From Prochlorococcus sp. HOT208_60m_813I02 (lineage in GTDB: Bacteria; Cyanobacteriota; Cyanobacteriia; PCC-6307; Cyanobiaceae), in the NCBI GenBank assembly GCA_002025865.1, contig MWOR01000150.1, forward strand, positions 1 through 43,654: a stretch of 43,654 bases of DNA. Reading direction: 5' to 3'. A program made the position numbers and the translations under genes. A model generated the notes under the pieces. That model ran no database searches. It was given only the letters and a program-made list of their open reading frames with translations, and was not told the origin of the DNA. Position 1 is the first letter of the stretch. Every line of letters begins with the position of its first letter. Below are positions 8,701-42,219 of the stretch, in pieces.

Positions 8701-9110
<410 letters not shown>

Positions 9111-32314: not shown

Positions 32315-32515
32315 GACTTATATATAAACCCAAAACAAACATTAATTATTTAAAGTCTTGAACTCAACATATAAGTAAAAATACTCAGATAAATATAAAA
32401 CTCATAGGTTTGCTAAATCACTTTAGATGATTGGTATAGGGTGCACGCGAATTATCAGCTACTCACACTTGAGCTTTTTATGTAACATAATAAGTTTACA
32501 TAAAGTAACAATTAA

Positions 32516-32710
32516 ATGAAAAGACTTTTTCCTTATATAGCTTTTGCATGTTTAACTGGTTTTACAGCTACGACCGGTTTACCAGTTATAGCAGGCGGTT
32601 GTAGTAGCCACATGAACAAAAAAGCTGAAATCAAATGTGCTGAAGATGATACTGAATGTCAAATTGAAAAAGCTGAAAAGTTTGATTTAAGAGATTCTCT
32701 CAAGTCATAA
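32516..32710 (+). CDS. Small secreted cysteine-containing protein (64 aa)
   Basis: The 64-residue protein has a signal peptide: MKRLFPYIAFACLTGFTATT, then GLPVIAGG with a possible cleavage after VIAGG or nearby. The mature part of about 38 residues (CSSHMNKKAEIKCAEDDTEC) is charged and has three cysteines, suggesting disulfides outside the cytoplasm. An alternative is a lipoprotein with lipobox-like VIAGGC. The upstream DNA has a TATGTAA/TTTACATA inverted repeat (about 32479-32502). Unknown role. Confidence 0.7.
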   Translation: MKRLFPYIAFACLTGFTATTGLPVIAGGCSSHMNKKAEIKCAEDDTECQIEKAEKFDLRDSLKS

Positions 32711-32714
32711 AATT

Positions 32715-32819
32715 ATGACTCAAATCAGTTTTTTTATGAACTCTGCCCCAAGAGATTTAATCGAGTTCGTATTTTTTGCTGCTGTTGGTTTTACTGCAGG
32801 ATTATTGGGATTAATTTAG
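32715..32819 (+). CDS. 34-residue single-span membrane peptide
   Basis: The frame starts MTQISFFMNSAPRDLIEF and ends FFAAVGFTAGLLGLI, one glycine-rich membrane span at the C-terminus. It begins 4 bases after the stop codon of the secreted protein gene on the same strand. The two could form an operon. Such glycine-containing single-span peptides often bind larger membrane complexes, but no partner is visible. Confidence 0.55.
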   Translation: MTQISFFMNSAPRDLIEFVFFAAVGFTAGLLGLI

Positions 32820-34371: not shown

Positions 34372-34632
34372 TTATTCAACTGGAGTTAGTGAATAGCAAA
34401 TGTCTTTATATCCATTTTCTTTATCCCACTTCTTCATCTCTGGAGTACTAGTAGCCGCTGCAAATCCTTCTAAATCCTTGACTTTTAGTATTAAGTGACT
34501 TTTATGTTCATTTACTTTGATGAGTTCATATTCTCCGACATATTTATGTCCCTCCTTTTCATGGAAATCGGCTACAAATTTATCAAAATCTTCAAAAGTA
34601 CAATCAAAAGTAGAAACTATTAAGGTATTCAT
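34372..34632 (-). CDS. Small conserved protein (86 aa)
   Basis: The 86-residue soluble protein starts MNTLIVSTFDCTFEDFDKFV and ends YKDICYSLTPVE. The alternation of beta strands and helices (HKSHLILKVKDLEGFAAATS, then TPEMKKWDKENGYKD) resembles a ferredoxin-like dimeric alpha/beta barrel of the kind found in small monooxygenase-like proteins. No catalytic residue can be named. Forty-six bases upstream is the clearest copy of the shared TTGACAGTCGATCTAA motif. Confidence 0.75.
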   Translation of the reverse strand: MNTLIVSTFDCTFEDFDKFVADFHEKEGHKYVGEYELIKVNEHKSHLILKVKDLEGFAAATSTPEMKKWDKENGYKDICYSLTPVE

Positions 34633-34645
34633 AAAAAAGATGGTT

Positions 34646-34678
34646 TTATCCCTCTATGTTAGATCGACTGTCAACCGT
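34646..34678 (-). repeat. Shared upstream motif, copy A
   Basis: On the minus strand: TTGACAGTCGATCTAA, then AGAGGGATAAAACC and a T6 run, directly before the 86-residue gene. About 80 percent of the 50 bases around it match copy C at 41704-41737. TTGACA resembles a -35 box; the following AGAGGG...T6 looks like an early hairpin. Confidence 0.65.
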
Positions 34679-35276: not shown

Positions 35277-35296
35277 TTAGATCGACTTTCAATCAC
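35277..35296 (-). repeat. Shared upstream motif, copy B
   Basis: Minus strand GTGATTGAAAGTCGATCTAA, followed by CCTCGATCCTAC and T6. It has one difference from copy C in the 20-base core. It precedes the 40-residue membrane peptide gene by 86 bases. Confidence 0.6.
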
Positions 35297-36662: not shown

Positions 36663-37091
36663 TTATCCTTCTGCGGGAATTAAAATAGGAACATCTTTGG
36701 CTCCTATTGCTGCGAACCAAACTATCGCATTATCATTTTTTGCATTACCCATTGTATGTTTTGGTGTCTTTGGACCAACTATAAAAGTATCACCTGCTGT
36801 ATAGGTAAGATCTTCCATCCCTTGTCTTTTGACAACAATCGTACCCTGCTCAACATTGCCTAATAATGGAATTGGATGGGAGTGGAGCGGAACTATACCT
36901 CCTTCAGCCAACTCGACTCTTTGTAATCTTATTTCTGCTTTTCCTTTTGGGTATTTAAGAGCATCTCCATCCATAGTCTCAGAACCAACAAAAACTTCTT
37001 GTACATCTACAGGAGATTCTGCAGCTATAGAAATGCTTGGATTTATAAGTATTAATGCAAAAGCTAATGCGATGAATAAATTCTTAATCAT
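36663..37091 (-). CDS. Exported cupin-domain protein
   Basis: The 142-residue protein has a signal peptide (MIKNLFIALAFALILINPSI, then SIAAES with an A-A cleavage site). A single cupin fold follows. GGIVPLHSHPIPLLGNVEQG gives two histidines and the GNVEQG turn; YTAGDTFIVGPKTPKHTMGN gives the second motif with its histidine. The metal site His-x-His...Glu...His is therefore complete. It is probably a periplasmic metal-binding protein. A weak copy of the shared motif lies 124 bases upstream. Confidence 0.85.
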   Translation of the reverse strand: MIKNLFIALAFALILINPSISIAAESPVDVQEVFVGSETMDGDALKYPKGKAEIRLQRVELAEGGIVPLHSHPIPLLGNVEQGTIVVKRQGMEDLTYTAGDTFIVGPKTPKHTMGNAKNDNAIVWFAAIGAKDVPILIPAEG

Positions 37092-37473
37092 GAATTTGAA
37101 TTTCTATAAAATTATTTAGGCTTATAGTATTTATTTTTTAAATATCTGTCAGTAATTGATTTAACTTTTTATGTTTTTGTTTAAATCTTTTATTAGGAGC
37201 TAGCGCTACTAATTTTTAAATCGACTGTTAATGTAAATTTTTTCTAATTCTTTTTTGTAAATTAAATCTTAAATTATGTAGAGAAACTTATATAGAGGTC
37301 ATTTTTATATAAGTTATATAAATCAAATTAAGTAGTCATTTTTACCAATTAAATATATCTGTTGTTGAATAAATATATTTGTCCTTGAAAAGCTCCTAAA
37401 AAATACTTTTTCTTGAAATAAAGATTGACAAGACATTCATAAAAAAAACTTTTATAAAACATTAACTTCTTTT
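37092..37473. promoter_or_regulatory. 382-base divergent gap with inverted repeats
   Basis: No convincing gene. Contents: a plus-strand hairpin ATTAGGAGC-TAGC-GCTACTAAT with a following T run (37192-37217); a weak copy of the shared motif on the minus strand, TTAACAGTCGATTTAAA (37215-37231); a perfect inverted repeat AACTTATATA-N11-TATATAAGTT (37285-37315); and a TTGACA at 37425-37430 without a well-spaced -10 box. Confidence 0.45.
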
Positions 37474-41156: not shown

Positions 41157-41280
41157 TTATTCATCTAATCTATCTGCATATTCTCTTAAAATCTCAGCCA
41201 TCTTTTGAGGTGGAATTTCTTGTTGATATTCTCTACATTAAAAAAATTTTATCTAAGAAATCTTTTATTGAAGATGACAT
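41157..41280 (-). pseudogene. Fourth gene of the micro-operon, interrupted by a one-base frameshift
   Basis: The frame starts MSSSIKDFLDKIFLM and stops. In the next frame the sequence continues as CREYQQEIPPQKMAEILREY, then ADRLDE. Removing one A after the run of seven T (minus strand TTAATG) joins the parts into a 40-residue protein. The gene starts 4 bases after the 31-residue peptide stop codon. A sequencing error in the homopolymer is possible. Confidence 0.55.
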
Positions 41281-41284
41281 AAAA

Positions 41285-41380
41285 TTAGCGTTTCATTTTT
41301 AAAGTAAAGTATGCAAACCCACCAAGCAATAAAAGACTCACAACCCCATAAGTAATCGCTATGCCGTACATGTAAGTCAT
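41285..41380 (-). CDS. 31-residue membrane peptide, third gene of the micro-operon
   Basis: The frame starts MTYMYGIAITYGVVSLLLLG and ends GFAYFTLKMKR: one span with a basic tail. Its ATG overlaps the TGA of the 46-residue gene (ATGA). The coupling and the typical small membrane subunit layout support translation. Confidence 0.6.
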   Translation of the reverse strand: MTYMYGIAITYGVVSLLLLGGFAYFTLKMKR

Positions 41381-41517
41381 TTATTTATAAAGACATAAGC
41401 AGAATATAAATAAACTAAGAAAACTCCAATGGCTATTGAACTTCCATAAATAAGAAAGTTCCAAAATCTATATAATTTAGGTTTTTTAAATTCTTTTTCT
41501 TCTTCTTTAGTAATCAT
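41377..41517 (-). CDS. 46-residue single-span membrane protein, second gene of the micro-operon
   Basis: The frame starts MITKEEEKEFKKPKLYRFWN, a charged cytoplasmic end. FLIYGSSIAIGVFLVYLYSA spans the membrane, and the protein ends YVFINK. Both ends overlap their neighbours as ATGA (41514-41517 and 41377-41380). No named family. Confidence 0.65.
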   Translation of the reverse strand: MITKEEEKEFKKPKLYRFWNFLIYGSSIAIGVFLVYLYSAYVFINK

Positions 41518-41630
41518 TTATTTTCTTTTTCTTTGCTGGCAGCATTACCTTTTGCTCTTAATACCAAAGTTATCGTAAGGGCAGCGCTTAATATCACAGC
41601 ATCAATTAATAGGTGCGGGGAAATATTCAT
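41514..41630 (-). CDS. 38-residue single-span membrane peptide, first gene of the micro-operon
   Basis: The frame starts MNISPHLLIDAVILSAALTI and ends with a charged tail (RAKGNAASKEKENK): one span with the tail in the cytoplasm. It overlaps the 46-residue gene by 4 bases. No strong ribosome-binding site is visible. Copy C of the shared motif and its hairpin with a T run lie 60-107 bases upstream. Confidence 0.6.
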   Translation of the reverse strand: MNISPHLLIDAVILSAALTITLVLRAKGNAASKEKENK

Positions 41631-41691
41631 CAACTGAAAAGAGAAATAAGAAGAGTCATTATCTTTTCATAAATAAATCTATTAATCATTA

Positions 41692-41712
41692 AAAAAGAGG
41701 GGGTTATCCCTC
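41692..41712 (-). terminator. Hairpin with T run between motif copy C and the micro-operon
   Basis: Minus strand AGAGGG-ATAACC-CCCTCT followed by T residues: six perfect pairs. It is either the terminator of the 51-residue gene upstream (41784-41939), or an early terminator (attenuator) for transcripts starting at the motif. Confidence 0.75.
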
Positions 41713-41717
41713 TAAGT

Positions 41718-41737
41718 TTAGATCGACTGTCAATCAC
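41718..41737 (-). repeat. Shared upstream motif, copy C
   Basis: Minus strand GTGATTGACAGTCGATCTAA. It is followed by ACTTAGAGGGATAACC and the hairpin at 41692-41712. The surrounding 50 bases align with copy A at 34646-34678. It lies 88 bases before the first gene of the micro-operon. Confidence 0.65.
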
Positions 41738-41783: not shown

Positions 41784-41939
41784 TTAGCCAGAGCAAGAGA
41801 AAGCACCTGCAAGAATGTTTTTAAAAATTGGTGCTTGACTTAAAGCATATAAAAAGAAAGTTGATGATGCGAGAGTAATAGCTACTTTAGAAGACCTATT
41901 AACTTTCAAATTTGAAACTTTTGCAAATGCAGAGTTCAT
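41784..41939 (-). CDS. 51-residue protein with hydrophobic centre and terminal cysteine
   Basis: The frame starts MNSAFAKVSNLKVNRSSKVA, then ITLASSTFFLYALSQAPIF (one probable span) and ends NILAGAFSCSG. AAGGA lies 6 bases before the ATG. The basic N-terminal segment before the span could also be a signal or targeting sequence. Unknown function. Confidence 0.6.
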   Translation of the reverse strand: MNSAFAKVSNLKVNRSSKVAITLASSTFFLYALSQAPIFKNILAGAFSCSG

Positions 41940-42015: not shown

Positions 42016-42219
42016 TTATTGCTCCTTTTTCTTAGCTTGCATTTTTATTAGCTCAAATTCTTCTTTAGAAACTATTCTGATTTTGTATGCTGGATATCTT
42101 GTCTTCCACCATTTATTGATCGAAATAGCTACTCCTTCTAAATTTTGGGTACAAATATTGATCCATAGAGTTTTAGTTTCAACTTCTTTATAGAATTCCC
42201 AACTTGTAGGTGAAGCCAT
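42016..42219 (-). CDS. Small basic protein (67 aa)
   Basis: The protein starts MASPTSWEFYKEVETKTLWI and ends FELIKMQAKKKEQ. A conserved-looking core (GVAISINKWWKTRYPAYKIR) is rich in aromatic and basic residues. No membrane span. The frame is open 12 bases further to a TTG, but the ATG at 42219 is preferred. Unknown function. Confidence 0.65.
   Translation of the reverse strand: MASPTSWEFYKEVETKTLWINICTQNLEGVAISINKWWKTRYPAYKIRIVSKEEFELIKMQAKKKEQ

Follow-up and report, generated by a model that had tools for sequence, protein, structure and literature searches.

A micropeptide operon of high-light Prochlorococcus and an upstream repeat element that may act as a joint for exchanging small genes

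Introduction

In the 43,654-nt stretch of Prochlorococcus DNA analysed here (the window), four minus-strand genes, A to D, appear to form a genuine micro-operon of high-light Prochlorococcus, which is probably translated by coupling. We favour, with modest confidence, the reading that this A-B-C(-D) operon belongs to a genus-wide pool of modules and that a short repeat element upstream both insulates it and, through the homology of a constant 16-mer, provides an exchange joint. The operon would then be one module in a pool of tiny genes, of which many carry the ~43-bp element at their head; the terminator-like hairpin of the element would insulate the module from upstream transcription, and the constant 16 bp would give homology for exchanging downstream modules between islands, islets and T4-like phages.

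To the question of how the streamlined genomes of Prochlorococcus gain and exchange small niche genes, a short genus-specific element that heads many small genes, in hosts and in viral contigs carrying T4-like genes, brings a concrete and testable seam. High-light Prochlorococcus is an abundant ocean photosynthesizer, and several micropeptide families with no match in the libraries searched are under selection in it. The preliminary description of this DNA dealt with the four frames and missed the element, which may have the role of an upstream joint for swapping modules between cells and viruses.

Results

Layout of the operon

The features are collected in Table 1. Direct reading bore out the frames A, B and C with their two ATGA junctions and the 4-base gap between C and D, as previously described, and the three frames proved to be conserved. 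The single membrane span claimed for each of A, B and C agrees with their maximal 19-residue Kyte-Doolittle values of 2.17, 1.91 and 1.92, compared with -0.41 for D of relatives; among 684 simulated ORFs with 30 aa or more, 13% attained 1.6. The C-terminus of A probably lies on the inner side of the membrane (C-in).

Table 1. Operon region and further copies of the constant 16-mer in the window
Feature	Position	Strand	Description
Gene A	41514-41630	(-)	38 aa; single hydrophobic span; K/R-rich C-terminus
Gene B	41377-41517	(-)	46 aa; single hydrophobic span after a charged N-terminus; overlaps A by ATGA
Gene C	41285-41380	(-)	31 aa; single hydrophobic span and a basic C-terminus; overlaps B by ATGA
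Gene D remnant	41157-41280	(-)	frameshifted here; 41-aa soluble two-helix hairpin in relatives
Gene E	41784-41939	(-)	51 aa; upstream; usual left neighbour of the repeat element
67-aa gene	42016-42219	(-)	upstream; served to find alternative occupants of the site
Repeat element, ~43 bp	41691-41733	(-)	upstream of A; constant 16-mer, hairpin and T-run
Constant 16-mer TTGACAGTCGATCTAA	41718-41733	(-)	part of element
Terminator-like hairpin AGAGGG-ATAACC-CCCTCT	41696-41713	(-)	part of element
T-run	41691-41695	(-)	part of element
Further 16-mer copies	34659-34674, 35277-35292, 37216-37231		0, 1 and 2 mismatches, respectively

The fourth frame, previously given as 40 residues after one frameshift, corresponds to a real gene; in relatives its product is one residue longer and soluble, and the copy in the window is broken. 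This copy runs in frame for 15 codons from its start at 41280 and then breaks, its conserved tail (41157-41234) lies in a different frame from the start, and alignment with the copy in locus L003 indicates a net loss of 2 bases. Because 50 of the 83 loci described below have either a broken D or none, we take the frameshift to reflect decay rather than programmed frameshifting, of which no sign was seen in the window D.

When chains are defined as three ATG frames of 30-70 aa with junctions of -4 to +5 bases, the window contains one on the minus strand (A-B-C) and one on the plus strand, against a mean of 0.07 and a maximum of 1 per window in 40 simulated windows. Taken alone, the A-B-C arrangement is only modestly above chance, and conservation is therefore the real test. 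The plus-strand chain comprises three small frames (30, 64 and 34 aa) at 32427-32819. A possible fifth gene, a 9-codon leader frame (MTLLISLFS) that ends at the start of A, was dismissed because several of 73 loci have lost its start or stop codon; the leader stretch is kept as DNA although the frame is not. Elsewhere in the window, an ATPC RNA motif at 8726-8816 was the only Rfam match above the gathering score.

Conservation and selection

We compared 83 loci including the window's own, 23 of them picked by a B match and 60 by an A match; the latter were spread along the identity ranking of A matches, with most of the identical top left out. In this set, the choice of which favours A and B, A was intact in 81 loci, B in 73, C in 69 and D in 33. 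The corresponding counts were 21, 19, 16 and 11 among the B-picked loci and 60, 54, 53 and 22 among the A-picked loci. The overlapping arrangement on which the preliminary description built its argument is conserved in relatives, both 4-base overlaps being kept in 61 of the 83 loci.

In these loci, all chosen through a match to A or B, pN/pS was calculated over distinct copies that are intact and of standard length, a restriction that lowers the value for D. It was 0.23 for A (n=70), 0.35 for B (61), 0.45 for C (61) and 0.31 for D (28), compared with 0.92-3.93 in the two shifted frames; substitutions thus depend on codon position, and A is by this measure the best conserved of the four genes. 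Judged from these patterns, A, B, C and D are real genes under purifying selection, and D is apparently decaying at the operon site. The opposite view, that the frames arose by chance in AT-rich intergenic DNA, can point to the frequency of two-frame chains in simulation (3.7 per window), yet frame conservation and codon-position bias refute it for A-C, and we give it practically no credence.

Matches of A were found in 185 of 249 genus genomes and in 72 of the 83 that are at least 90% complete. B was matched in 23 of 24 sampled genus genomes, the window's own included, and in none of 276 family genomes of other genera. C was matched in 23 of those 24 and in 8 of those 276, with one strong match (G219) and seven weak ones. 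The range of D is far broader than that of B or C, the two others searched for outside the genus: besides 173 of 249 genus genomes (67 of the 83 near-complete ones), matches occurred in 89 of 300 family genomes, spread over 31 of 59 genera.

D and C in other gene chains

Genome G152, which we take to be MED4, carries a chain of D followed by frames of 61, 29 (C), 51, 37 and 48 aa, with junctions of -1, +2, -4, 0 and -1 bases; A-B lies elsewhere in this genome and is followed by a DUF1651 gene that overlaps B by one base. In the MED4-like loci L017 and L019, a DUF1651 gene stands directly 3' of B in place of C-D. C is present in other micro-gene chains as well. Genomes G017 and G406 each have two A-B loci, with B broken in the A-b-C-D copy of both; in G017, A of the second A-B locus is broken as well. 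This state, two A-B loci with a broken B in the A-b-C-D copy, is seen at L102 and L094.

Outside the genus, D lies 39-50 nt upstream of a ~230-aa protein in 16 of 55 D loci and, starting from the protein, in 18 of its 30 loci; some genomes are common to both sets (L259-L273, L304-L333, L334-L373). The ~230-aa protein resembles the first half of integrase-like frames of ~410-460 aa. Among the genus genomes checked for it only G136 matched (E 9e-6), and none was seen beside the operon. We propose that D, a soluble hairpin protein, is mobile, was added at the 3' end of the operon and is now being lost. The four-subunit membrane complex suggested earlier is not supported in that form: D is soluble, leads an independent life in other genera and behind the element, and is missing or disrupted at most of the 83 loci, C recurs in other chains, and L017 and L019 lack C-D after B.

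Anatomy and distribution of the repeat element

The anatomy of the element was examined in 84 copies with at most 2 mismatches to the 16-mer, from 40 fetched stretches of 9 genomes. A perfect stem of at least 5 pairs (G-T allowed) followed by T's is present in 56 copies and the stem is lacking in 28; at least two unlike stem kinds occur, AGAGGG/CCCTCT and AAGGAGC/GCTCCTT. The hairpins fold only moderately better than shuffled sequences (z -1.6 to -2.1); together with the T-run they are terminator-like and may terminate upstream transcription. A promoter scan found 4 promoter-like sites versus 5.8 expected, which is not above shuffles. A sigma-70 promoter was considered and not adopted: TTGACA is present, but by eye there is no consistent second hexamer, its spacing differing between the hairpin kinds. 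At position 2225 of L475 a palindromic copy was observed, in which a second copy on the opposite strand uses the same hairpin.

With at most 1 mismatch, the 16-mer occurs in 4-18 copies in each of 24 same-genus genomes, in which a reversed control pattern has 0 copies; among 276 other genomes, four have a single hit each. The window contains four copies at up to 3 mismatches, compared with 0.56 expected. The copy at 34659-34674 starts 42 nt before the ATG of an 86-aa gene (34372-34632).

The element is frequently placed at gene starts. In 41 of the 84 copies, a frame with 25 or more codons has its first ATG 41-47 nt from the element start, compared with any such ATG at that distance for 108 of 4200 random positions (2.6%) in the same stretches; 43 copies have none there. 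The genes behind the copies are unlike in sequence. Among 27 D copies outside the cassette (L207-L244), 24 have, by visual inspection, the element or a variant, which in a few cases has several mismatches, with the T-run ending at or next to the D ATG (exceptions, L241-L243), and 11 cassette D copies follow C instead. Of 73 distinct cassettes, 66 have the 16-mer upstream of A when up to 3 mismatches are allowed; it begins 101-105 nt before A (103 nt in the window). The 81 loci with intact A comprise 64 with both the element and E, 7 with the element only, 1 with E only and 9 with neither; E lies within 400 nt upstream in 65 of them.

Different occupants at one site

With the upstream gene of 67 aa as the starting point, alternative occupants of the site were sought in 14 genomes that lack an A match (11 shown to have none and 3 absent from the match rows). 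Five genomes gave a locus, of which four were read (L496-L499) and the fifth, L495, has its downstream side at a contig end. In L497, E and the element are followed at once by D, and in L496 by unrelated DNA. In L498, E is broken, the element is missing and a gene that looks by eye like a high-light-inducible one is present; L499 is a distant, different locus. E in L496 and in L497 is identical to that of the window at 142 of 156 positions each, and the 16-mer at 16 of 16. Identity is 27/47 and 30/48, respectively, in the spacer between E and the element, 22/26 and 18/27 in the hairpin part, and 49/104 and 47/89, with many gaps, over the next 120 bases. These comparisons fit an exchange of DNA behind the element, and a deletion would also explain L496. 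Because the spacer differs too, the change of occupant may already begin ahead of the element. Behind the element of L496, the DNA at ~2030-2090 resembles, by eye, the final part of a tRNA gene encoded on the opposite strand.

Copies in viral contigs and phage records

Copies of the element lie beside T4-like genes in two IMG/VR contigs (L246 and L418), which are uncultured contigs and can be misassembled. In L246, genes for a T4-like RNase H and PhoH are followed by the element, D and then the start of a DUF4268-like gene (below cut-off); the same DUF4268-like gene follows D in the host stretches L088 and L090. In L418, element copies stand on both sides of a 142-aa cupin directly upstream of uvsX, and this cupin is 96% (137/142) identical to the window cupin at about 36663-37091. 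The IMG/VR search, which took the exact 16-mer only, gave 17 stretches, with the hairpin in just three: L409, which thus also has the element, L418, and L420, which is the same contig as L246. We take the remaining stretches to be chance matches.

None of 50,697 phage records matched most of the element. A 48-nt query matched 47 phage records, mostly of Vibrio phages, and the two Vibrio phage records read (H15 and H33) have a similar hairpin without the 16-mer. These terminator-like hairpins, which resemble the second kind of the element, lie at L514 160-185 and L515 155-175; one of the two phages is placed in Schizotequatrovirus (Straboviridae).

Protein families

Searches of Pfam, NCBIfam and PHROG gave no match above cut-offs for A, B, C or the D tail of the window, Pfam also gave none for intact D, and profile searches of PDB sequences yielded nothing below E 0.4. 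A match of B to NDUF_B12 (E 0.019) and weak matches of D to DUF7433, Toxin_36 and others were all below cut-offs and were taken as chance. The predicted model of D is a bare helix hairpin with helices at residues 3-19 and 25-40 (pLDDT 81, pTM 0.40).

Discussion

Judged from their sequences, A, B and C are single-pass membrane proteins that most likely act together on a membrane complex; for A-B, perhaps with C, acting together in the membrane is plausible. They might serve a photosynthetic or respiratory membrane complex as small accessory subunits, comparable with the products of psbEFLJ, but we consider this unlikely. Their sizes, single spans and tight operon are like those of known small subunits, A is the best conserved of the four genes, and a putative high-light-inducible gene occupies the same site in L498. 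However, neither the family libraries nor the PDB sequences gave a match above cut-offs, no Pfam match to the chlorophyll-binding domain of high-light-inducible proteins was found in A, B or C, and psbL lies elsewhere in all four complete relatives searched (it was not found in the incomplete own genome). Moreover, B is broken or absent in 10 of the 83 loci and A has no match in 11 of the 83 near-complete genomes, and these genes therefore do not encode an essential subunit. Very short hydrophobic peptides that lie near a pool common to phages and are patchily lost could instead be membrane-acting stress or anti-phage effectors of a toxin-like kind, gained and lost with islands. Passages of Steglich 2008 propose toxin-antitoxin roles for two overlapping MED4 ncRNA pairs holding a possible short peptide (PMC2518516). 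Three different conserved peptides in a fixed order and under purifying selection speak against such effectors, as does the failure to see B and C in the viral contigs searched, and we regard this role as quite improbable.

The frames, their overlaps, purifying selection, the mosaic composition of the modules and the repeat with its copies in viral contigs are shown by the data, and from these we infer recombination at the element, termination, coupled translation and a common function in the membrane. As to the element, the reading that we prefer, an exchange joint heading modules of a genus-wide pool, has to be weighed against its being an abundant intrinsic terminator with a conserved leader, placed near small genes for regulation, while the shuffling is ordinary island recombination that ignores it. 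A hairpin with a T-run is what an intrinsic terminator would look like, 23 of the 84 copies have a same-strand frame upstream that ends at most 9 nt before the element (in 4 of these inside its first bases), and the spacer before the element also differs between occupants. A terminator, however, does not need a constant 16-mer 5' of its hairpin; this 16-mer is kept while the hairpin kinds differ, and different occupants stand behind the element at one site. We therefore see the terminator-only explanation as a possibility on the doubtful side. Against the exchange joint, two alternative occupants of one site are few, recombination itself was not observed, and a constant part of only 16 bp is short for RecA-type exchange; the differing spacer further lowers our confidence in this reading and in the one given next. 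The copies that lack a stem or a start codon at 41-47 nt, the 103-nt distance to A in this operon and the loci without the element count against the joint as well. We speculate, as a serious possibility that falls somewhat short of probable, that one exchange system is common to T4-like phages and high-light Prochlorococcus: the 43-bp terminator-like element, in many cases fused to the start codon behind it, would be the general joint for swapping micro-gene modules, and micropeptide chains such as A-B-C-D would be built and rebuilt by adding modules to it.

Comparison with known systems

PeSLs, as studied by Arbiol 2010 and Comeau 2014, are reportedly mobile regulatory cassettes of T4-type phages. 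They combine a stem-loop terminator with an early promoter and mark exchange sites of T4-type phages at which modules are shuffled. The element likewise is a short intergenic stem-loop in many copies, may be linked with a shuffling of small modules and occurs in viral contigs with T4-like genes; a putative stem-loop terminator, hairpin plus T-run, is found in 56 of the 84 copies and in the window. The PeSL papers are cited in a passage of PMC4503421. Unlike PeSLs, the element is found mainly in a bacterial genus, has a constant 16-mer before the hairpin, often has its T-run abutting a start codon and has no promoter that stands out. It resembles PeSLs in anatomy, but as its promoter and recombination roles are at most putative, we do not call it a PeSL.

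A 48-bp repeat in Prochlorococcus genomic islands is said to have been described by Coleman 2006 in Science. That repeat is probably the same element: its size is similar, and 12 of the 15 element copies in MED4 are clustered at 347-360 kb and 1347-1365 kb. We know of no report on this repeat that mentions copies abutting start codons, its place before the operon or copies beside uvsX and phoH in viral contigs.

The genes psbEFLJ are four tiny membrane-protein genes in a row; the operon has no sequence relation to them, and psbL lies elsewhere, as noted above. Integron cassettes have an attC site 3' of each gene and depend on the IntI integrase, whereas the element lies on the 5' side of genes. 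The literature searched, which covers few subscription journals and no supplements, contained no description of the operon or of the arrangement of the element at start codons. With regard to the picocyanobacterial integrase element, as presented in passages of PMC10187409, we took the ~410-460-aa frames for its integrase, D lying outside the genus upstream of the protein that resembles their first half; a difference is that none was seen by the operon.

In the passages covered, Steglich 2008 reports 113 new MED4 ORFs of 33-130 aa detected by arrays; the A-B-C-D order, the overlaps, the family relations and the element are not described there (PMC2518516). The same passages place Yfr11 at 358606-358754 of MED4 (PMC2518516); by our reading this position adjoins the D-61-C-51-37-48 chain.
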